IMG/VR virus record: IMGVR_UViG_3300046002_005763
Location: 1-44,262 of that record
Reading direction: 5' to 3' (one strand)
Length of the DNA: 44,262 nucleotides
Source of the DNA: a virus
The translations under genes and the position numbers were made by a program. This document shows positions 127 through 16,730 of the stretch, in pieces (the stretch's first letter is position 1; each line of letters starts with the position of its first letter). The notes beneath the pieces were generated by a model. The model saw only the letters and a program-made list of their open reading frames with translations, searched no databases and was not told where the DNA came from.

Positions 127-3100
127 GCATGCGCGAAACGCTGCTGCAAGAACTGACGGTGTCGGAGCTGAAGAAGAAGGCCGCGGCGCTCGGTGTTCAG
201 TTCTCCACCAGCTACAAGGCCGACGTCAAACTGCCCCTGGCCGCCGTCATCTTCGGCCCGAAGCTCGGGGCCTTCTACGCCAACCTGATGGGCGCGGACG
301 GCTACCTGACGATGGATCGCTGGTGGTCGCGGACCTTTAACCGCTACCGCGGCACCCTGCTGCAGAAACCGACCGCGCAAGGCCTGGCCCGCTTCCGCGA
401 GCTGCTGGGCCAGCCGAACCTGTCGGACGATGAGACCTTGGCCGCGACGGTCGGGCCGCGTAACACCTACGCCGCCCGGGGTTACAAGAACCCCAGCGAG
501 ATCGAGGCCGCGGCGAACACGCTCTACAAGGCCGCCTTCGAGAACATCGAGGACCAGCCGTTCAACGCCTCCGACCGCAGCTTCATGCTCGACACGGTCG
601 CGCGTGCGCGGGCCGCGCTCAAACGCCAAGGCGTCGAGATCAGTGTGGCGGATATTCAAGCCGTCCTGTGGTATTATGAGAAGCGCCTCTACGGAGAGCT
701 GGGCGCTCGTCAAACAGCGGATGTCAGTTATGAAGAAGCAGCCCAACGTGTCGTCGCTGAAGGAACCGCAGCTGCTGGAGCCCTCGGACCCGATCTGGGC
801 GGCGATTGGGAAGCTGCCGCTGAACAGTCTGACCCCGGCGCTCTCGCCTACAACCAAGGCCCCGTCGCCCGCAGCGTAGCCGAATACTTCTCCCCGGAGA
901 ACATCGGCTCGCTTTTGCAAAAGGACGATTGGTCGGTCCTGACGGCCGAGAACCCGATGGGCCAGCAGGCCACACCGGAGGCAAACGCCGCGGCCCAGGC
1001 CAAGCTGGTCGCCGATCTCGATGCGCTGGGCGTCGACTACCAGCCGTCGATTGGCCGCTACGGCCAGATCGAGAACTCGTTCGTGGTCGTTGGGGTCACC
1101 GAGCAGCAGGCGCGCGACCTCGGCCGGAAGTACGACCAGGACAGCGTGCTGACGCACAAAGGCCTGATCTACCAAGACGGCCGGATCGACGCGGCGACGG
1201 GCGTGACCGTCCACGCCACCCGCCCCGAGGACTACTTCACCGAGGTGCCCGGCACGGGCGCGCTGTTCACGGTGGACATCGACTTCGGCGAACAGACCGA
1301 AACCTTTAACCAGTCCGACCCCTTCTTCTCCGCGCTGGAGCGCGCCGTCGAGACCAGCCAGCTGACCAAGGCCTCGGCCGCGCGCGGCGGCTTCGCTCTG
1401 TTCCAGCGCAACCGCGGCCAGATCGCCTTCGGCCAGGACGTCAGCCAGACGCCGAGCGTCATCAGCCTGCTGCGCGCCGCCGACCTCTCAACTTTCATCC
1501 ACGAGACCGGGCACTTCTTCCTCGAAGCCACGGCGCACATGGCCAACCAGCCGGACGCGCCGGCTGACATCGTCGCCGACATGAGCACCGTGCTCAACTG
1601 GTTCGAGCCGGGCATGACCCAGGCCAGCTGGAACGGCATGTTGCCCGAGCAGCGTCGCCCCTATCACGAGAAATGGGCCCGCGGCTTCGAGGCCTACCAC
1701 TTCGAGGGCCGTGCCCCGAGCCTGGCCCTGCGCGATGTGTTCCGCCGCTTCTCGGCATGGCTCAAGAACGTCTACCGTTCGCTGACCGCCCTCGACGTCG
1801 AGCTGACCGACGAGGTCCGTCAGGTCATGGACCGGATGCTCGCCTCCGAAGCCGAGATCAAGGACATGGAGCAGGTCCGCGGGCTCGCGCCGGCCTTCAC
1901 CAACAAGCCCGAGTTCGCCAGCGCCGACGAGTGGGAAGAGTACCAGCGGCTGGCGGGCGACGCCACGGCCGAGGCCATCGAGCAGCTCGAGCAGCGCAGC
2001 GCGCGCGACATGCGCTGGGCATCCGGTGCCAAGGACCGCTACCTGCGGTCGCTGCAGCGCGAAGGCGAAGAGCAGCGCAAGGCTGTCCGCGCCGAGGTCA
2101 CCGCCGAAGTCATGGCCGAGCCAGTCAACCGGGCGCGGAGCTTCCTGCGTCGCGGCTTGGGCGAGAACGGCGAGCCGGTCGAAGGCGCAGCGAAGCTGGA
2201 CCTGGCCACCCTCAAGTCGCTGTACCCGGCCGACGGCCCCTGGACCCAGCTGCGCCGGGGCGGCAAGTACGGGGAGGTCAGCACCGACGGCCTGCACCCC
2301 GACGCCGTCGCCAGCATGTTCGGCTACCCCAACGGCGAAGCCCTGATCGAAGACCTGGTCAACGGCGAAGACAGCGCCGACAAGATCAAGGGCCTGACCG
2401 ACCAGCGCATGCTCGAACGCTACGGCGACCTGTCCGACGCGCAGTCCATCGAGCGCGCCGCCAACGAGGCCGTCGCCAACGAGGCGCGTGGCAAGTTCGT
2501 CGCCGCCGAGATGGCGATGGCCGACAAGGCCATCGGCAAGAAGTCGATCCTGAACAGCGCCGCCAAGGAGTTCGCGGCCCAGGTCGTCAACCGGCTGGAG
2601 CTGAAGCGGCTGCGGCCGGCGCAGTACCTGGCCGCCCAAGGCCGCGCCGCCAAGGCCGCCGAGAAGGCGCTGAAGGCCGACGACCTGCCCGCCTTCGCCA
2701 CGGCCAAGCGCAACCAGCTGGTCAACCTGCACACCGGCCGCGCCGTGCAGCAGGCCCAAAAGGACGTCGAGAAGACGATGCGGTTGTTCACGCGGATCGT
2801 GAGCGCCAAGGACGACAGCATCTCGAAGTCGCGCAACATGGACCTGGTCAACGCTGCTCGCGCGGTGCTGGCCTCCTACGGCGTCGGCCGCGTCAAGAAC
2901 GATCCGGCTGGCTACATGAAGGCCCTGTCGCAATACGACCCGACGCTCTACGCCGACATCGAGCCCTTCGTGAACGGTGCCAGGGGCGACGCCAAGCCCG
3001 TGGTCGATCTGACCTACGAACAGTTCACCGCGCTGCGCGACACCGTCAACCAGCTCTGGGTTCTGTCGCGTCGCACCAAGCAGATCGAGATCGACGGCAA

Positions 3101-5264
3101 GCTCATAGACCGCGAGGTGGTCACCACCGAGCTGGGCCTGCGCCTCGACACCCTCGGCATCCCCGCCCAGGCCGGCGTCGACCGCGCGCCGACGGATCGC
3201 GACAACCGCGTCCGCGACCTGCTCGGCGCTCGCGCCGCGCTGCGCCGCGTGGAGAGCTGGGCCCGGGGCACCGACGGTGCGAACTCGGGGCCGTTCCGCA
3301 AGTACATCTGGAACCCGATCTCGGTCGCCGCCGACGCCTACCGCGCCGAGAGCGGCGTCTACATCCGCCGTTTCCGCGAGCTGCTCGACGGCATGCGCGC
3401 CGAGCTGAAGCCCGGCGACATCAAGGCCCCCGAGATCGGATACACCTTCGGCGGCAAGTCGGAGTTGTTCCACGCCCTGTTGCACACCGGCAACGGCTCT
3501 AACAAGTCCAAGCTCCTGCTCGGCCGGGGCTGGGGCAAGAAGAACGCCGACGGCTCGCTCGACGACAGCCGCTGGCAGTCGTTCGTCGACCGCCTGCACA
3601 CCGAAGGCGTCCTGACGCAGAAGGACTGGACCTTCGTGCAGGCCGTCTGGGACTTGCTGGAAGAGACCAAGCCCGGCGCGCAGAAAGCTCACCGCGCGAT
3701 CTACGGCCGGTACTTCGACGAGGTCAGCGCCGACCCGGTCGACACCCCTTTCGGCCAGCTGCGCGGCGGCTACGTCCCTGCGATGACCGACGGCTTCCTG
3801 GTTCAGGACGCCGCTCTGCGCGCCGAGCAGGAGGCCATCGAAGGCGGCGACAGCGCCATGTTCCCGGCGGCCTCGAACGGCTTCACCAAGTCGCGCGTCG
3901 AGGACTACACCCGCGAGCTGGCGCTGGACCTGCGCCTGCTGCCGATGCACATCGACAAGGTGCTGAAGTTCACGCACCTGGGCCCGCCCGTCCGCGACGT
4001 GGCCCGCATCCTGAAAGACCGGGGCTTCTCCAAGAAGCTGCAGGCCTACGACCCGACGGCCCAGACCGACCTGCTGCTGCCTTGGCTGCAGCGCGCCGCC
4101 AAGCAGCTGGTCGAGACCCCGTCGAAGGGCCGCGCCGGCAAGGTGTCCGACCGCTTCTTCAGCTCCGTGCGCAGCCGCGTCGGCATGCAGCTCATGTTCG
4201 CCAACGTCGTGAACACGGCGCAGCAGGTCACCGGCTTCTCGAACGTGCTGCTGCGCGTCAAGGCTCCGATCCTGGGCGACGCGCTGTGGCGCTACGTCCG
4301 CGACCCCAAGGGCGTCGCCGAAGCCGCGGCCAGCCAGTCGGTCTTCCTGACCAACCGCATGTCCTCGGACATCTTCGAGGCCCGCCAGACCATCGCGCAG
4401 CTCACCAAGCTGGACCCGTCCAAGACCGGCGAGGCTGTGGCCTTCCTGCAACGCAACGCCTACTTCATGCAGTCGGCGCTGCAGAACGTCATGGACGTCG
4501 TCAGCTGGACCGCCGCCTTCAACCAGGCCGTGGGCAAAGGCGAGAGCGACCGCGACGCCGCGCGCTTCGCCGACAGCGTGATCCGGGAGACCCAAGGCAC
4601 GATGGCCCCGGAGGATGTCTCGCGCTTCGAGACGGGCCCGGCGTTCATCCGGGTGTTCACGCAGTTCGCCGGCTACTTCAACATGATGGCGAACCTGAAC
4701 GCCACCGAGGTGCAGCTGGTCGCCCGCGACGTCGGCCTGCGCAAAGGTGCCGGCCGTCTGTTCTACGTCTACCTGATGGGCTTCGCGGTGCCCGCCCTGA
4801 TCGGCGACGCCATCGCCAAGGCGCTGCGCGGCGGTTGGGAAGACGAAGAGGGCGACGGCTATCTCGACGACATGTTCGCGTGGTTCTTCTCGTCGCAGGC
4901 CAAGTTCGCTCTGGCCGCCGTGCCGGTGGCGGGCCAGGCCGCCAACGCAGCAATGGGGGCCTTCACCAAGCTGCCCTACGATGACCGCATCTCAATGTCG
5001 CCGGCCGTGTCGGTGATCGAGAGCGGCCTCGGCACGCCGGCCGAGGTCTACCAGAGCATCGTCGACGGCGAGAGCTTCAACCGCGCCGACACGCGCGACG
5101 CTCTGAACCTGCTCGGCGTCCTGACCGGCTTGCCCATCGGCGCGCTGGCCAAGCCCGTCGGCTATGGCGTCGGCGTCGCGCAAGGCGACATCGCGCCGAC
5201 CAGCCCTCTGGACGCGGCGCGCGGCGTGGTCACAGGCGCGCCGTCGCCCGAGAGCCGGCAGTAA
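1..5264 (+). CDS. Giant virion polyvalent protein, C-terminal part (continues from 41235)
   Basis: This is the 3' portion of a gene that begins at 41235 and crosses the window ends; joined, it encodes about 2720 residues. The reading frame is open from base 3 (codon phase matches 41235 because the offset of 44133 is divisible by 3). Position 1500-1514 encodes HETGH, within STFIHETGHFFLE, a zinc metallopeptidase motif at about residue 1467 of the joined protein. Further on are long charged helical stretches, a segment TPFGQLRGGYVPA (about 3745-3780), and a hydrophobic segment YLMGFAVPALIGDAI (about 4771-4815) that may cross a membrane. Very large multidomain proteins of this kind follow the internal virion genes in many podoviruses. 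They are thought to be packaged and ejected with the DNA, with enzymatic domains acting on the cell. The gene is complete at its 3' end and lies 62 bases before the tailspike gene. Enzymatic function is inferred from the motif only. Confidence 0.85.
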   Translation, partial: GIYRAFKADGRFVADRGTQRQASVDQNLAKVQELYDTLGPAGMRETLLQELTVSELKKKAAALGVQFSTSYKADVKLPLAAVIFGPKLGAFYANLMGADGYLTMDRWWSRTFNRYRGTLLQKPTAQGLARFRELLGQPNLSDDETLAATVGPRNTYAARGYKNPSEIEAAANTLYKAAFENIEDQPFNASDRSFMLDTVARARAALKRQGVEISVADIQAVLWYYEKRLYGELGARQTADVSYEEAAQRVVAEGTAAAGALGPDLGGDWEAAAEQSDPGALAYNQGPVARSVAEYFSPENIGSLLQKDDWSVLTAENPMGQQATPEANAAAQAKLVADLDALGVDYQPSIGRYGQIENSFVVVGVTEQQARDLGRKYDQDSVLTHKGLIYQDGRIDAATGVTVHATRPEDYFTEVPGTGALFTVDIDFGEQTETFNQSDPFFSALERAVETSQLTKASAARGGFALFQRNRGQIAFGQDVSQTPSVISLLRAADLSTFIHETGHFFLEATAHMANQPDAPADIVADMSTVLNWFEPGMTQASWNGMLPEQRRPYHEKWARGFEAYHFEGRAPSLALRDVFRRFSAWLKNVYRSLTALDVELTDEVRQVMDRMLASEAEIKDMEQVRGLAPAFTNKPEFASADEWEEYQRLAGDATAEAIEQLEQRSARDMRWASGAKDRYLRSLQREGEEQRKAVRAEVTAEVMAEPVNRARSFLRRGLGENGEPVEGAAKLDLATLKSLYPADGPWTQLRRGGKYGEVSTDGLHPDAVASMFGYPNGEALIEDLVNGEDSADKIKGLTDQRMLERYGDLSDAQSIERAANEAVANEARGKFVAAEMAMADKAIGKKSILNSAAKEFAAQVVNRLELKRLRPAQYLAAQGRAAKAAEKALKADDLPAFATAKRNQLVNLHTGRAVQQAQKDVEKTMRLFTRIVSAKDDSISKSRNMDLVNAARAVLASYGVGRVKNDPAGYMKALSQYDPTLYADIEPFVNGARGDAKPVVDLTYEQFTALRDTVNQLWVLSRRTKQIEIDGKLIDREVVTTELGLRLDTLGIPAQAGVDRAPTDRDNRVRDLLGARAALRRVESWARGTDGANSGPFRKYIWNPISVAADAYRAESGVYIRRFRELLDGMRAELKPGDIKAPEIGYTFGGKSELFHALLHTGNGSNKSKLLLGRGWGKKNADGSLDDSRWQSFVDRLHTEGVLTQKDWTFVQAVWDLLEETKPGAQKAHRAIYGRYFDEVSADPVDTPFGQLRGGYVPAMTDGFLVQDAALRAEQEAIEGGDSAMFPAASNGFTKSRVEDYTRELALDLRLLPMHIDKVLKFTHLGPPVRDVARILKDRGFSKKLQAYDPTAQTDLLLPWLQRAAKQLVETPSKGRAGKVSDRFFSSVRSRVGMQLMFANVVNTAQQVTGFSNVLLRVKAPILGDALWRYVRDPKGVAEAAASQSVFLTNRMSSDIFEARQTIAQLTKLDPSKTGEAVAFLQRNAYFMQSALQNVMDVVSWTAAFNQAVGKGESDRDAARFADSVIRETQGTMAPEDVSRFETGPAFIRVFTQFAGYFNMMANLNATEVQLVARDVGLRKGAGRLFYVYLMGFAVPALIGDAIAKALRGGWEDEEGDGYLDDMFAWFFSSQAKFALAAVPVAGQAANAAMGAFTKLPYDDRISMSPAVSVIESGLGTPAEVYQSIVDGESFNRADTRDALNLLGVLTGLPIGALAKPVGYGVGVAQGDIAPTSPLDAARGVVTGAPSPESRQ

Positions 5265-12958: not shown

Positions 12959-13270
12959 TCAGCTTGTCCTTTTAGCGACGTATCTGTCGACGGCTTCGAT
13001 GCTGTCGAGGGTGTAGACCGCGCAGCCCATGCTGCGCAGCTTCTCGTGCTCTCGGACCTGGTGGTCTTCGAGCGTTCCGCCCGGGCGTTTCAGCTCGACG
13101 AAGTCGATGCGCGTCGGCAAGCCGTCGCCGGCCGCCCAGGTCGGATCGTCCGGCCACACGACCAACCGATCCGGCGCGCCGCGGTGCCCCGGCCAGACCA
13201 TCTTCCTGACCAGAGCGCCGGCAGCTGTCGCCTTCTTGCGGAGGTGCTTCTCGACTACGGTTTCACGCAT
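12959..13270 (-). CDS. VRR-NUC domain nuclease
   Basis: The 103-residue product is a stand-alone VRR-NUC nuclease of the PD-(D/E)XK superfamily. Visible catalytic signatures are GAPDRLVVWP (Asp 34) and FVELKRPGG (Glu 59, Lys 61), with an N-terminal ETVVEKHL helix. Such proteins act as Holliday-junction or flap nucleases in phage replication cassettes with SNF2 helicases and DUF2800/DUF2815 proteins, all present here. I chose ATG 13270, which overlaps the end of the upstream HNH gene; the upstream extension to 13330 has no family match. Confidence 0.88.
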   Translation of the reverse strand: MRETVVEKHLRKKATAAGALVRKMVWPGHRGAPDRLVVWPDDPTWAAGDGLPTRIDFVELKRPGGTLEDHQVREHEKLRSMGCAVYTLDSIEAVDRYVAKRTS

Positions 13271-13754
13271 CGAGGTGTTTCCAGATGTCGCCCGCCTTGA
13301 TGCGGCTGACCAGCTGGTTGCTAACACCATAGGCCGCGGCGATCTGTACGTTGCTGCCGGACGCTGCGCGGATCGCGCGGACGTCCTCGTCCTTCAGTTT
13401 AGCCATCGGGTGGTCTTGTCCTTTGCGTGTGGTGCCGTGAAGTATTTGGTCGTCGCTGTTCTCTTGGTGCGTCCCGTATTTGAGATTAGTCTTGGCGCAG
13501 TTTTTCTTGTCCCCGTCAAGGTGCCGAACGACTTGGCCCTCGGTTTTAGGTGGGAGAAAAGCAGCGGCCACCAGCCGGTGGACCTGCTGGGTGGACCAGC
13601 GACCCTCCCCCGTAAGGGTCACCTGGAGATAGCCCGAAGGCCCAGCGCAGGGGGTGAGCAGCCGAGGGCCGCGCATCAAAGATCGAACGCGGCCTTGGTC
13701 ACTGACCTGGTAGCGGCCTTCCTTCCCGGCTATGTCCTTCCACTGTTCCCGCAT
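13263..13754 (-). CDS. HNH homing endonuclease with NUMOD4 domain
   Basis: The 163-residue product starts with a NUMOD4 motif (EQWKDIAGKEGRYQVSDQGR, VRSL), then an HNH core (VHRLVAAAFLPP ... VVRHLDGDKKNCAKTNLKYG), and ends with a helix-turn-helix (NVQIAAAYGVSNQLVSRIK) that probably reads the target site. It is a free-standing homing endonuclease directly downstream of the intein-containing polymerase gene, one base after its stop. It may promote its own spread and that of the neighbouring DNA. Confidence 0.9.
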   Translation of the reverse strand: MREQWKDIAGKEGRYQVSDQGRVRSLMRGPRLLTPCAGPSGYLQVTLTGEGRWSTQQVHRLVAAAFLPPKTEGQVVRHLDGDKKNCAKTNLKYGTHQENSDDQILHGTTRKGQDHPMAKLKDEDVRAIRAASGSNVQIAAAYGVSNQLVSRIKAGDIWKHLDA

Positions 13755-13755
13755 C

Positions 13756-16548
13756 TCACTTCCGATACCTAGCGCCTTCCCACCCCGACGCGGCCAGCGG
13801 AAGACCCGCGGCCCAAGGGGGGACGGCCGACATTAGTGCAGAAAGGTGGGAGCTTGTAAAGGCCTCTGTGTCAGGAGTTTCGGCTACCAACTCGTCGTGC
13901 ACACCGAGAACTATAGAGTACCCCGCCGCTTCTACCGCGGGCATGTTGTGGGCCAGGACATCTCTTGAGCCTGCTTGCGTGGCGTTCTCGATGATCTTCC
14001 CCCCATAAGTATGAAGCTGCTCGAAGCGTCTCGTGTACTGGTTGACACCCATGTAGGTCAGCTTGCCGTCCTCGACGGCCACGCCCGGGTAGCAGAGGCA
14101 ACGACCAGACGGCAGGCGCATGCGCAGCCAGCTGCCGTCCCGTTGGAAAACGAGCTTGCCGCCCGCGACCTCGACGCGCAGGCCCGGCTGCTCGGCGGCG
14201 CGGATCGCCGCGCGTTCGGCTTCGTACCACAGGTCGACGATGTGCTTGTTCTTCTTGCGCCAGGCCTTGACGATCTCCAGCGCCCGGGCGTCGGACATCT
14301 CCAGCCCGTAGATGCGGGCCATCGACTGGAACGCGCCGACCGCGCCTTGATAGCCGCAGTTGTGGACTAGTCGGCCTGCGGCAGTAAAGCGATGAAGGGG
14401 TCCGCAGTTGAGCAAGTCCCATACACGCCCTTGGGTTTGCAGCTCGGCTGTGTCCACCTCTCTGTTATCTGCTCGAAGGTCAGGCCCATCGCCAGCAAGT
14501 TTTTCAGTGTCGTGTCCGCGTACCGGACCTCCGGGTGTGTTTGCCGGAACAGATGCCAGGCCGTTGACCTCTTGCTGCGCTGCGTGTGCGACCTGTTGGC
14601 CCGGTGTGTCGACCAACGCAGGTTCCCGGCCGCGTAGTCCCCGTCGTTGTCCACCCGATCCAGATCGTGCTTCGGGGGCGGCGGCCCTAGGTTCTCCAGC
14701 ACCCAGACGTAGGCGTGCGCTACCGTCGGGAAGTCGAACTTCACGCCCCGGCCTCCGTAGTTTTTGAACCCCTTGTCCTTGGGGTTCGTGCAGCGTTGCT
14801 TGGCGGCGGTCAGCCTGCGGGCCAAGCTCGGGTGCACGAGCTTGGTTCCGTGGCCCCGTGCGGACGAGACGAAGCCCGTCAGCGGCTGCTCGGCCAAGTT
14901 CAACCGCGTCCGCCTGCCCTTCAACCCACACGAGATGATCGGGGGTGGCGCAGAGGCCGTCGTATGTGATGACACGTTTCTCTCCCTTGAACACGGGCCC
15001 GTCGGTTTGAACCCAGGCTGTTCCGTCCCACACGAAATCGCCAGGCAAGACGGTTTCGATAGGGACTTCCCCGCGTGCCGTCAACACTAAAGTTCCTTCA
15101 AGAAGACACGCTAACTCCGGTACCTTTCCTTGCGCCTGCCGCTGGTCGTCTGTCACGTCCTCGACCTTGATGCCGAGCACCTCGGAAGCGCCGACGTGGT
15201 AGAGGTCGGGCCCTTCGCGCGCCTGCTCCAACTCCCCCTTCTTGTTGCGCACCATCAGCGGCGAACCGTCTGGGTTCCAGCGCAGGGTGTCGTAGTCCCT
15301 GAACGCGCGGAGCTTCCACTCTTCGCCCGCCAACCACGCGAGGAAGCGGCCTTCGATGTTGGCCAGATCGGACGACACCATCTTCTTGCCGGGGCCGACG
15401 GTCAACGCGCCGCGGGTGCAGTTGGCGGCGACGTTCATGACGTTGTCGTAGAGCAGGTCGGCACAGTCGGCGAGGAAGGCTTCGATGGCGTCGAGGATCG
15501 CTTGTTGCTTCAGCGTCGGACGCATCAGGTTCTGGGGCTGGAAGAGGCGGCCAGCCCAACGGCCCGTGCGCGCAGCGCCGCAGAACTGGAGCGTGCCGCG
15601 CAGTCGCCCGTCGCTCGACGTGCCTCGCATCAGCGCCTTGTACTTGGTGGTCGACGTCACCGTCGCCATGAGCCGGATGCGCAGCAAGTCCTTGACCGGC
15701 TCGGGCAGGTTCTCATCGGCGAGCCGGCGCTCCAGCGTGCCCTTCTGCATGTTGGGCAGGTCCACCCCGAACTCGCCGAGCAGGTACTTCAGGAAGGCGT
15801 CGCGCTTGGTGGTGCTCTCCAGCCCCTGCCCGGTCTCGGGATCGAAGCCGGTCAGCATCTGGGTCTTGGCCTTCAGCCCGACCTTGGCCAGGTCCGTGGC
15901 GCGCACGGCGGCAGCGGCCAGCGCCAGGTCGACGGCGACGCCCCTGTCGTTGATCTTCTGGTCGAGCACCCACAGTGCCCGCTCGCGCGCGTTGCCGGGG
16001 TAGTTCCATTTCGGCATGCGCTTCTTGACTTCGCGCATCGAGACGATGTCCGAGCCGGCGTAGTCGAGGAACCGCTGCCACTCGACAGGGTGGGTGTGGC
16101 GCGTCGCGCGCCTGATCTTCTGGTTCTTGGGCCTGGGCTTGCAGAAGAGCTGCACCAAGCTCTTGCCCGCCTTGTGCTTGGACAGGTCCACGGGCACGCC
16201 GAGGATCGAGCAGAGGGTGTCGAGCGACCCGGGCAGGCTGTGCGCCAGGGCCTGGACCATCGTGTCCCAGATGCGCTCGAGCGGCATCTCGTAGCCCCAG
16301 GCGTGACGCAGGACCGTGCGGTCGAAGGCCGAGTTCTGCCAGACCTGCTCATCGGCGGCGTCGGCCGCGGCCAAGGCCACCTTGACCTTGTCCTCCCAGC
16401 CGGGCGCGGTGCAGTCGATGACCTCGACCGGACCGTCGTCGAGCGCCCAGGCGAAGATCGTGATCTCGACGTCCTCGGCGTAGCGGTGCAGGCCGTGGTT
16501 CAGCGGCGTCTCGCAGTAGGTCTCGGTGTCCCCGTAGAAGGTGGTCAC
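13756..16548 (-). CDS. polA: Family A DNA polymerase interrupted by an intein
   Basis: The 930-residue precursor is the replicative polymerase. An N-terminal 3'-5' exonuclease shows DTE (residues 7-9), QNSAFDRTV (Asp 76) and YAGSDIVS (Asp 167). The polymerase domain shows motif A SSDLANIEGRF (Asp 394), motif B KVPELA-CGYQGAVGAF and motif C VLGVHDELVAE (Asp 885). Motif B is split between Ala 480 and Cys 731 by a 250-residue intein (481-730). Removing it leaves 680 residues, normal for this group. The gene overlaps the upstream small gene as ATGA. Activity would require protein splicing. Confidence 0.93.
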   Translation of the reverse strand: MTTFYGDTETYCETPLNHGLHRYAEDVEITIFAWALDDGPVEVIDCTAPGWEDKVKVALAAADAADEQVWQNSAFDRTVLRHAWGYEMPLERIWDTMVQALAHSLPGSLDTLCSILGVPVDLSKHKAGKSLVQLFCKPRPKNQKIRRATRHTHPVEWQRFLDYAGSDIVSMREVKKRMPKWNYPGNARERALWVLDQKINDRGVAVDLALAAAAVRATDLAKVGLKAKTQMLTGFDPETGQGLESTTKRDAFLKYLLGEFGVDLPNMQKGTLERRLADENLPEPVKDLLRIRLMATVTSTTKYKALMRGTSSDGRLRGTLQFCGAARTGRWAGRLFQPQNLMRPTLKQQAILDAIEAFLADCADLLYDNVMNVAANCTRGALTVGPGKKMVSSDLANIEGRFLAWLAGEEWKLRAFRDYDTLRWNPDGSPLMVRNKKGELEQAREGPDLYHVGASEVLGIKVEDVTDDQRQAQGKVPELACLLEGTLVLTARGEVPIETVLPGDFVWDGTAWVQTDGPVFKGEKRVITYDGLCATPDHLVWVEGQADAVELGRAAADGLRLVRTGPRNQARAPELGPQADRRQATLHEPQGQGVQKLRRPGREVRLPDGSARLRLGAGEPRAAAPEARSGSGGQRRGLRGREPALVDTPGQQVAHAAQQEVNGLASVPANTPGGPVRGHDTEKLAGDGPDLRADNREVDTAELQTQGRVWDLLNCGPLHRFTAAGRLVHNCGYQGAVGAFQSMARIYGLEMSDARALEIVKAWRKKNKHIVDLWYEAERAAIRAAEQPGLRVEVAGGKLVFQRDGSWLRMRLPSGRCLCYPGVAVEDGKLTYMGVNQYTRRFEQLHTYGGKIIENATQAGSRDVLAHNMPAVEAAGYSIVLGVHDELVAETPDTEAFTSSHLSALMSAVPPWAAGLPLAASGWEGARYRK
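14359..15108 (-). mobile_element. Intein in polymerase motif B
   Basis: The element encodes precursor residues 481-730. Block A is CLLEGTLVLTARGEVPIETV with Cys 481 as first nucleophile; block B is GLCATPDHLVWV with Thr 535 and His 538; blocks F and G are RVWDLLNCGPLHRF and GRLVHN, with penultimate His 729 and Asn 730; the +1 residue is Cys 731. All residues needed for class 1 splicing are present. Between the splicing halves (about 565-690) the polymerase frame is Arg/Gly/Ala/Pro-rich and low in complexity, because the same DNA encodes an HNH nuclease in another frame. Confidence 0.92.
14367..14975 (-). CDS. HNH endonuclease nested out of frame inside the intein
   Basis: The 202-residue product is read one base shifted relative to the polymerase and lies wholly inside the intein. 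Residues about 60-135 match phage HNH nucleases: KQRCTNPKDKGFKNYGGRG, then HDLDRVDNDGDYAAGNLRW with HNH residues His 103, Asn 118 and Arg 120. The start at GTG 14975 has a strong ribosome site, AGGGAG, six bases upstream, inside the intein codons for FKGEK. An internal GTG before HPSLARR is an alternative start. The product would be made independently of the intein and could act as its homing endonuclease. Two compensating frameshift errors in the sequence are an alternative, but the intact polymerase frame on both sides argues against them. Confidence 0.8.
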   Translation of the reverse strand: MSSHTTASAPPPIISCGLKGRRTRLNLAEQPLTGFVSSARGHGTKLVHPSLARRLTAAKQRCTNPKDKGFKNYGGRGVKFDFPTVAHAYVWVLENLGPPPPKHDLDRVDNDGDYAAGNLRWSTHRANRSHTQRSKRSTAWHLFRQTHPEVRYADTTLKNLLAMGLTFEQITERWTQPSCKPKGVYGTCSTADPFIALLPQAD

Positions 16549-16730
16549 TTCGGCACCACGTCGGTGGTCAGGTCTTCAAAGTCCTCTGGGCTGGCCGGAG
16601 CTTTAGCCCGCGCGAGAGCAGCAGCGCGCCCCCGGGTCCGACGGCGTGTTCGCGCCGAGAACAAGAAGGCGTCTTCGTCCCAATACCCGCCGAGAGCAGC
16701 TTCGATGGCGTCGTCCGCGGCGTCTCCCAT
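16545..16730 (-). CDS. Hypothetical 61-residue protein
   Basis: The product is acidic at its N-terminus (MGDAADDAIEAALGGYWDED), with a basic centre (RTRRRTRGRAAALARAK) and an acidic tail. I chose ATG 16730 because it overlaps the preceding stop as ATGA and has GGAG six bases upstream; GTG 16742 is possible. It overlaps the polymerase start by ATGA and may be translated with it. No family is recognised. Confidence 0.65.
   Translation of the reverse strand: MGDAADDAIEAALGGYWDEDAFLFSARTRRRTRGRAAALARAKAPASPEDFEDLTTDVVPK

Follow-up and report, generated by a model that had tools for sequence, protein, structure and literature searches.

A phage DNA polymerase intein with a putative HNH homing endonuclease gene overprinted in the +1 frame of its linker

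The window analyzed in this study comprises 44,262 nucleotides of viral DNA (IMG/VR record IMGVR_UViG_3300046002_005763, positions 1 to 44,262). Its minus strand contains an ORF of 930 codons without interruption (positions 13756 to 16548), which encodes the precursor of a phage family-A DNA polymerase of the BPP-1/BcepC6B-like type (phrog_17, E=4e-100; phrog_7766, E=2e-56). This extein host gene harbors an intein of 250 amino acids (14359 to 15108, minus strand) that extends from Cys1 to a terminal His-Asn. As claimed in a first-pass annotation of this DNA, the polymerase frame carries all intein splicing blocks (Cys 481, TPDH, HN, and the +1 Cys), and blocks A, B, F, and G could be read directly: Cys1 is residue 481 of the polymerase, block B is TPDH, block F is VWDLLNCGPLHRF, and the intein ends with LVHN, followed by the +1 Cys of the extein. 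Among the aligned intein relatives, the residues C1, T55, H58, and N250 were invariant. Removal of the intein from the sequence resulted in a polymerase of 680 amino acids that could be aligned without gaps across the junction with four intein-free phage polymerases; the extein was 51 to 55% identical to the intein-free polymerases of the phages 689R2, BPP-1, BcepC6B, and YeP5.

An AlphaFold2 model based on an alignment of relatives showed a Hint fold formed by residues 1 to 85 and 222 to 250, mostly with pLDDT values of 92 to 97, and an unstructured middle part. The N-terminal splicing domain (Hint N, residues 1 to 85, positions 14854 to 15108, minus strand) was recognized by a profile match with E=6e-32 and had a pLDDT of ~96 for residues 1 to 80. 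The C-terminal splicing domain (Hint C, residues 222 to 250, positions 14359 to 14445, minus strand) had a profile match with E=1.6e-13 and pLDDT values of 82 to 95. The linker between the two (14446 to 14853, minus strand) is predicted to be disordered in the polymerase frame, with a pLDDT of ~37 for most of residues 88 to 220. In a Foldseek search with the intein model, the top matches were all inteins (NpuDnaE, gp41-1), with a probability of 1.00 and E values of ~0.003. Splicing blocks, a Hint fold, and the insertion at a conserved site of an otherwise contiguous protein, as is characteristic of class 1 inteins, were all found in the window, whose host gene is continuous, unlike those with split inteins or fractured genes. 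Judged by its sequence and predicted fold, the insert is a class-1-type intein that would be expected to splice.

The DNA encoding the linker also contains most of a second gene. An ORF in the +1 frame relative to the polymerase (14367 to 14975, minus strand) starts with GTG and encodes a protein of 202 amino acids that matched an HNH endonuclease family of PHROG (phrog_3377, E=6e-19); further PHROG HNH matches were phrog_8790 (E=3e-18) and phrog_374 (E=2.5e-18), while a Pfam search with the ORF gave zero matches. The GTG at position 14975 is preceded, at a spacing of 6 nt, by the Shine-Dalgarno-like sequence AAGGGAG (14982 to 14988, minus strand; anti-Shine-Dalgarno duplex, -8.4 kcal/mol), which is overprinted on the intein codons Lys-Gly-Glu. 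These results confirm the earlier proposal of a clear HNH nuclease in the +1 frame (14975 to 14367) with AGGGAG and GTG for its translation, and they place the nuclease outside the frame in which an in-frame endonuclease of an intein would be found. The description of the middle part as low-complexity sequence had to be refined, as the polymerase frame here simply reads the HNH gene out of frame.

In the model of the HNH protein, the core (ORF residues 49 to 132, positions 14580 to 14831, minus strand) had pLDDT values of >90 nearly throughout, and the family-invariant residues R, Y, G, D, R, Y, and N are kept. It is followed by a C-terminal, HTH-like part of three helices (ORF residues 138 to 175, positions 14451 to 14564, minus strand; helices with pLDDT values of 84 to 92), whereas disorder is predicted for residues 1 to 43, where the ORF overlaps the splicing domain. 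A Foldseek search of the model against the PDB gave no significant match, the best one being an HNH nicking enzyme with E=1.1, and a PDB sequence search with the HNH profile yielded nothing useful. The window HNH is devoid of the N-terminal zinc-ribbon that precedes the core in its relatives and sits on a long branch of the HNH tree. Because of these two properties this copy is possibly impaired, and the absent zinc-ribbon in particular may have weakened it.

The distribution of this layout was analyzed in two surveys. The HNH-first survey covered 146 HNH loci from IMG/VR and phage records, which comprised 40 contiguous overprinted inteins (30 with the HNH gene in the +1 frame and 10 in the +2 frame), seven split inteins, and 99 loci without a Hint domain. 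The intein-first survey was performed with single N-intein queries in viral contigs and in GTDB genomes (Clostridia, Selenomonas, Synergistales, spirochaetes, and Actinomycetaceae) and revealed 40 overprinted inteins, 12 mini-inteins lacking HNH, one split intein, and one intein broken by a frameshift, with locus L154 left out; this sample is limited to relatives of the queries, and a few loci were common to both surveys. An in-frame HNH was found in none of the 146 loci of the HNH-first survey and in none of the intein-first survey. Together, the two surveys provided 81 overprinted loci, which clustering at a nucleotide identity of 85% reduced to 61 clusters. Apart from L001, the 14 top-ranking IMG/VR relatives of the window HNH were all located within inteins of family-A polymerases. 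Among isolate genomes, cultured phages included, the overprinted layout was present in the Dhillonvirus Sodalis phage SO-1 (gp39 inside gp38), in APSE-1 (P46 inside P45), and also in Salmonella Jerseyvirus, Pseudomonas MR14, Shewanella SFCi1, Streptococcus Javan prophages, Gardnerella AB1, and Caulobacter GB2A. A second host gene was identified in L123, where the intein of a terminase large subunit carries an overprinted HNH of another subfamily. Open alternative frames beside HNH in L026, L105, and L112 were treated as chance occurrences, as these loci have neither a Hint domain nor an extension of a host gene.

A trivial cause of the layout would be indels from assembly or sequencing, or two compensating real frameshifts, which displaced an HNH domain that was originally in frame. 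The window is a metagenomic virus record, and one prophage relative (L209) in fact has a frameshift inside its intein. However, an IMG/VR contig with a different sample id (L001) is identical to the window over 8606 nt, homologous inteins with the same layout were found at ~80 loci including isolate phage genomes, zero in-frame cases were observed, and the internal start and its Shine-Dalgarno sequence are conserved. Since finished genomes of isolates show the same layout, the objection that it is an indel artifact fails; for the family as a whole it is already refuted, and we attach next to no probability to it. The view of the layout as an unusual oddity did not hold either: as judged from the two surveys, an overprinted HNH is the standard architecture of a large and little-noticed family of phage and prophage inteins.

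Pairwise comparisons of the linker DNA revealed which of the two frames is constrained. In every pair tested, the differences peaked at position 3 of the HNH codons. The numbers of differences at HNH codon positions 1/2/3 were 25/12/59 for L055 and L062 (p=1e-8) and 65/45/118 for L074 and L078. Comparison of the window with L004 gave 38/28/64 (p=3e-4) and with L012 40/35/67 (p=0.002), while 44/36/57 differences to L014 corresponded to only p=0.085. When the same DNA was translated in both frames, the window and its relatives shared 46 to 51% amino acid identity in the HNH frame versus 18 to 25% in the polymerase frame, and the HNH identity was higher in all pairs. Because the differences are located at HNH third positions and the HNH amino acid identity exceeds that of the polymerase frame, the HNH frame is the coding one, and its codons are under purifying selection.

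The constraint on the polymerase frame is of a different kind. When synonymous codons were drawn for each HNH protein, ~3 to 20 stop codons were expected in the polymerase frame, yet zero stops were present in any contiguous case. For the A+T-rich Streptococcus inteins, 13 to 22 stops were expected, and 0 of 4000 draws were open; taken over the relatives, the open frame lies far outside what chance would produce. For the GC-rich window alone, the expectation was 2.5 stops, and the probability of an open polymerase frame was ~0.05. Split and free-standing HNH relatives do contain stops in the polymerase frame. Since this frame is free of stops in all contiguous cases and contains them in the split and free-standing relatives, read-through of the insert must be required, as expected for a precursor that needs to be translated and spliced.

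For the window copy, the probability of ~0.05 for an open frame, the absent zinc-ribbon, and the long branch would also fit a state of decay, in which the intein still splices while the HNH ORF is a dead remnant kept open by the GC-rich composition. Against such a decay stand the 202 intact HNH codons with all invariant core residues, the intact Shine-Dalgarno sequence and start codon, the third-position excess in the comparisons with L004 and L012, and the high pLDDT (>90) of the HNH core, and we consider it rather unlikely. A group I intron with an HNH ORF, in which the open polymerase frame is incidental, is another conceivable identity of the insert, as HNH genes are common in phage introns and gp39 of SO-1 was annotated as a "type I self-splicing intron." In conflict with this assumption, all intein splicing blocks are conserved, and the polymerase frame is open in every contiguous case despite the ~3 to 20 stops expected. 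An Rfam search of positions 13700 to 16600 of the window gave zero matches up to E=1, and no intron match was obtained with Rfam in L055, L003, L056, L067, and L083. Because of the missing Rfam match and the conserved splicing blocks, a group I intron is excluded for the window, and we regard this explanation as extremely improbable.

An HNH gene with an initiation site of its own is supported by conserved translation signals. In most members with the HNH gene in the +1 frame, its start is an ATG at position +145 of the intein, which is formed by a conserved Tyr codon and the following G and is preceded by a Shine-Dalgarno sequence composed of Lys/Arg-Glu-Val codons, such as AAAGGAGGTTATCACTTATG in L004. 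The Tyr codon at the start site was TAT in 38 of 48 distinct loci, compared to 41% expected from the extein codon usage (P=3e-9), and the HNH Shine-Dalgarno sequence was stronger than in synonymous shuffles (p=6e-5). Several members in which the +145 ATG is lost (TAC), including the window, have ATG or GTG at position +133; a start at this position was found in the window, L073, L167, L168, L170, L195, L198, and L200. The HNH ribosome-binding site itself is overprinted, because its codons belong to the splicing domain. The HNH frame might alternatively be reached by programmed ribosomal frameshifting, resulting in a fusion of N-Hint and HNH rather than in an independent protein, and in some loci, including the window, the open HNH frame does extend somewhat beyond the proposed start in the upstream direction. 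In many +1 loci, however, an HNH-frame stop directly precedes the conserved ATG at position +145 of the intein, and the Shine-Dalgarno sequence and start are under selection, which makes frameshifting very unlikely.

Comparison of inteins and exteins provided evidence for mobility. Between the Dhillonviruses SO-1 and Pubbukkers, 0 of 47 third positions differed in the single-coded start of the intein, compared to 91 of 450 in the extein. A comparison of Dhillonvirus with Jerseyvirus gave third-position differences at 12 of 47 sites of the intein and 249 of 426 of the extein. As the divergence of the intein was much lower than that of the extein in several pairs, the intein has moved separately from the polymerase. 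In line with a mobile element, the distribution is disjunct, and close relatives of the window polymerase do not contain the intein. No excess similarity of the intein was found for the Streptococcus pair L003 and L010, and the surroundings of the insertion site gave no sign of a co-conversion gradient. In L005 and L006, two copies located on the same contig, the HNH part was nearly identical and the N-intein diverged, as if the HNH part had moved by itself.

In the HNH tree, the +2 members formed one clade (support 93), the HNHs of the APSE/SFCi1 type and of the terminase fell among free-standing HNHs, and the HNHs of six split loci formed one clade near the window HNH (SH-aLRT 98). The separate grouping of the split-form, +2, and APSE/SFCi1 plus terminase HNHs suggests that HNH was acquired at least three times, with weak support of the deep nodes of the tree. 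An origin of the HNH gene de novo from the intein frame, that is, overprinting in the strict sense, was rejected. Since the HNH is a member of a large family of free-standing genes, it was the HNH gene that entered, and what is read in the polymerase frame is a by-product.

The six loci of the split clade (L002, L077, L079, L080, L082, and L083) consist of three overlapping genes for the N-half, HNH, and the C-half. The polymerase frame stops after block B, the HNH gene overlaps this end, and a third ORF starts exactly at the M-x-VPVYD motif of the C-intein. The start of the C-half is mostly preceded by a strong Shine-Dalgarno sequence, e.g., AGAGGAGAAAATATG in L002 and AAGGAGAAATTGTGATA in L083. 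L171, which has an HNH of the APSE/SFCi1 type, is also split, and here an ATG at position 3387 adjoins the HNH stop. In the mini-inteins L188 and L196, the first part of the HNH gene is still present in the +1 frame, and they are therefore deletion products of overprinted inteins. Regarding the split forms, the nuclease would be independent of the polymerase frame, so that the gain of a start for the C-half could compensate for a stop in that frame; on these grounds we infer an evolutionary order from overprinted to split inteins.

In classical inteins, the homing endonuclease domain (LAGLIDADG, in some cases HNH) is fused in frame between blocks B and F. The inteins described here likewise combine a Hint splicing domain with a homing endonuclease partner between blocks B and F, but the nuclease is predicted to be a separate protein from a different frame. 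Dassa et al. are said to have described, in 2009, fractured genes with split inteins, in which a free-standing endonuclease lies between the two halves. The arrangement of an N-half, a nuclease gene, and a C-half in L171 and the six split loci is similar to that of fractured genes, whereas the HNH gene in the split loci overlaps both neighbors in another frame, contiguous relatives exist, and the window is contiguous. Some members of the family are present in databases in a different guise. The polymerases of Jerseyvirus, Dhillonvirus, and APSE-1 (P45/P46) that are annotated as "intein-containing DNA polymerase precursor" carry the same element. An overlapping HNH ORF is annotated in SO-1 (gp39) and APSE-1 (P46) and omitted in the other records examined, and in none of the examined records is the overlap explained, the SO-1 record calling gp39 an intron.

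No intein with an HNH gene in another frame was described in the literature we searched, outside which lay a 2025 preprint (10.1101/2025.01.02.630785) on inteins of actinophages with a "non-canonical architecture." The closest published precedent of a hidden HNH is the non-splicing insert of phage methylases known as ShiLan. This domain and the Pacc40 insertion represent out-of-frame HNH genes in actinophage methylases (Arsenault, Gosselin, and Gogarten 2025, PMC11855218). As in ShiLan (PMC11855218), the HNH gene described here lies in another frame of an insertion that is open in the frame of the host gene, the distribution is disjunct, and the window has an internal GTG start. Unlike the window insert, the ShiLan insertion lacks splicing domains and is assumed to be retained in the protein, and no ribosome-binding site was found for it (PMC11855218). 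The members of the present family are inteins, that of the window is located in a replication polymerase, and they have conserved Shine-Dalgarno signals.

Taken together, the element is very probably an intein with an overprinted and independently translated HNH homing endonuclease gene, an explanation that draws direct support from the layout, the selection on both frames, the conserved initiation signals, the movement of the intein, the deletion remnants, and the split forms. According to this model, the putative homing endonuclease gene is written over the intein linker in the +1 frame, and the polymerase would be translated straight through the insert to give a precursor. The Hint domain would then excise itself, and in the polymerase frame the HNH gene would be a meaningless disordered linker that need only stay free of stops. 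The HNH protein would be a separate product of internal initiation, with its Shine-Dalgarno sequence and start codon lying within conserved codons of the splicing domain, so that splicing and nuclease expression would be uncoupled by the overprinting. The predicted nuclease presumably cuts polymerase alleles without an intein in co-infecting or resident phages, whereby the element would spread. An in-frame deletion of the HNH gene would result in a mini-intein, while stops in the polymerase frame together with a start signal for the C-half would result in a split intein in which the HNH gene spans the break. The wider proposal that overprinting represents a third, widespread intein architecture, which was acquired more than once and is intermediate to phage split inteins and mini-inteins, is in our view evenly balanced. 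The acquisitions meant by this proposal are the polymerase inteins with HNH in the +1 frame, those with HNH in the +2 frame, those of the APSE/SFCi1/Caulobacter type, and the terminase intein.

In this arrangement, one DNA would serve the splicing and the nuclease functions of a parasite in two frames, with the ribosome-binding site hidden in the splicing domain. It accounts for annotation oddities such as the gp39 "intron" of SO-1, P46 of APSE-1, and "low-complexity" inteins, and it represents a clean natural case of long overlapping genes on the same strand, where coding is confined to one frame and the other need only stay open. The arrangement further shows how a free-standing HNH gene can colonize an intein without fusion, and it offers a concrete route to split inteins, which are important tools of biotechnology.

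The window carries a free-standing homing endonuclease gene with NUMOD4 and HNH_3 domains (13263-13754, minus strand), whose start lies 1 nt past the stop codon of the polymerase gene polA. Since this gene lies directly downstream of the polymerase, two different HNH genes are associated with polA, one overprinted in its intein and the other following it.

In the record of Sodalis phage SO-1 (locus L055, 3078-3836), gp39 bears the label "type I self-splicing intron", and gp38 is described as harbouring such an intron. We rejected this annotation; the inserted sequence is an intein, and an HNH gene is overprinted in it. A prophage copy in Eubacterium plexicaudatum (L209, 2501-3432) has a frameshift in the N-intein just upstream of the HNH start, reflecting either decay of this copy or a sequence error. 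At L026 (3895-4551), the +2 frame of an HNH ORF is open throughout, and neither an intein nor a host gene was found around this ORF; the open frame is probably due to chance.

A split polymerase intein at L171 (2501-3476) has an HNH gene of the type found in APSE-1 and Shewanella phage SFCi1 located between its halves and overlapping both. Among split polymerase inteins it represents a second kind, independent of the first.

One 214-kb contig contains two polymerase inteins (L005 and L006, each at 3550-4482 of its locus). Their HNH regions are near-identical (8 differences in 579 nt) and their N-inteins have diverged (43 differences in 216 nt), so that, judged from these sequences, the exchange seems to have involved the HNH part alone.

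Two inteins are present in a single terminase large subunit at L123 (2694-3650). The first contains an in-frame LAGLIDADG domain, and the second contains an HNH ORF (2971-3546) in a different frame. The overprinted-HNH layout thus occurs again in a second host gene, that of the terminase large subunit.
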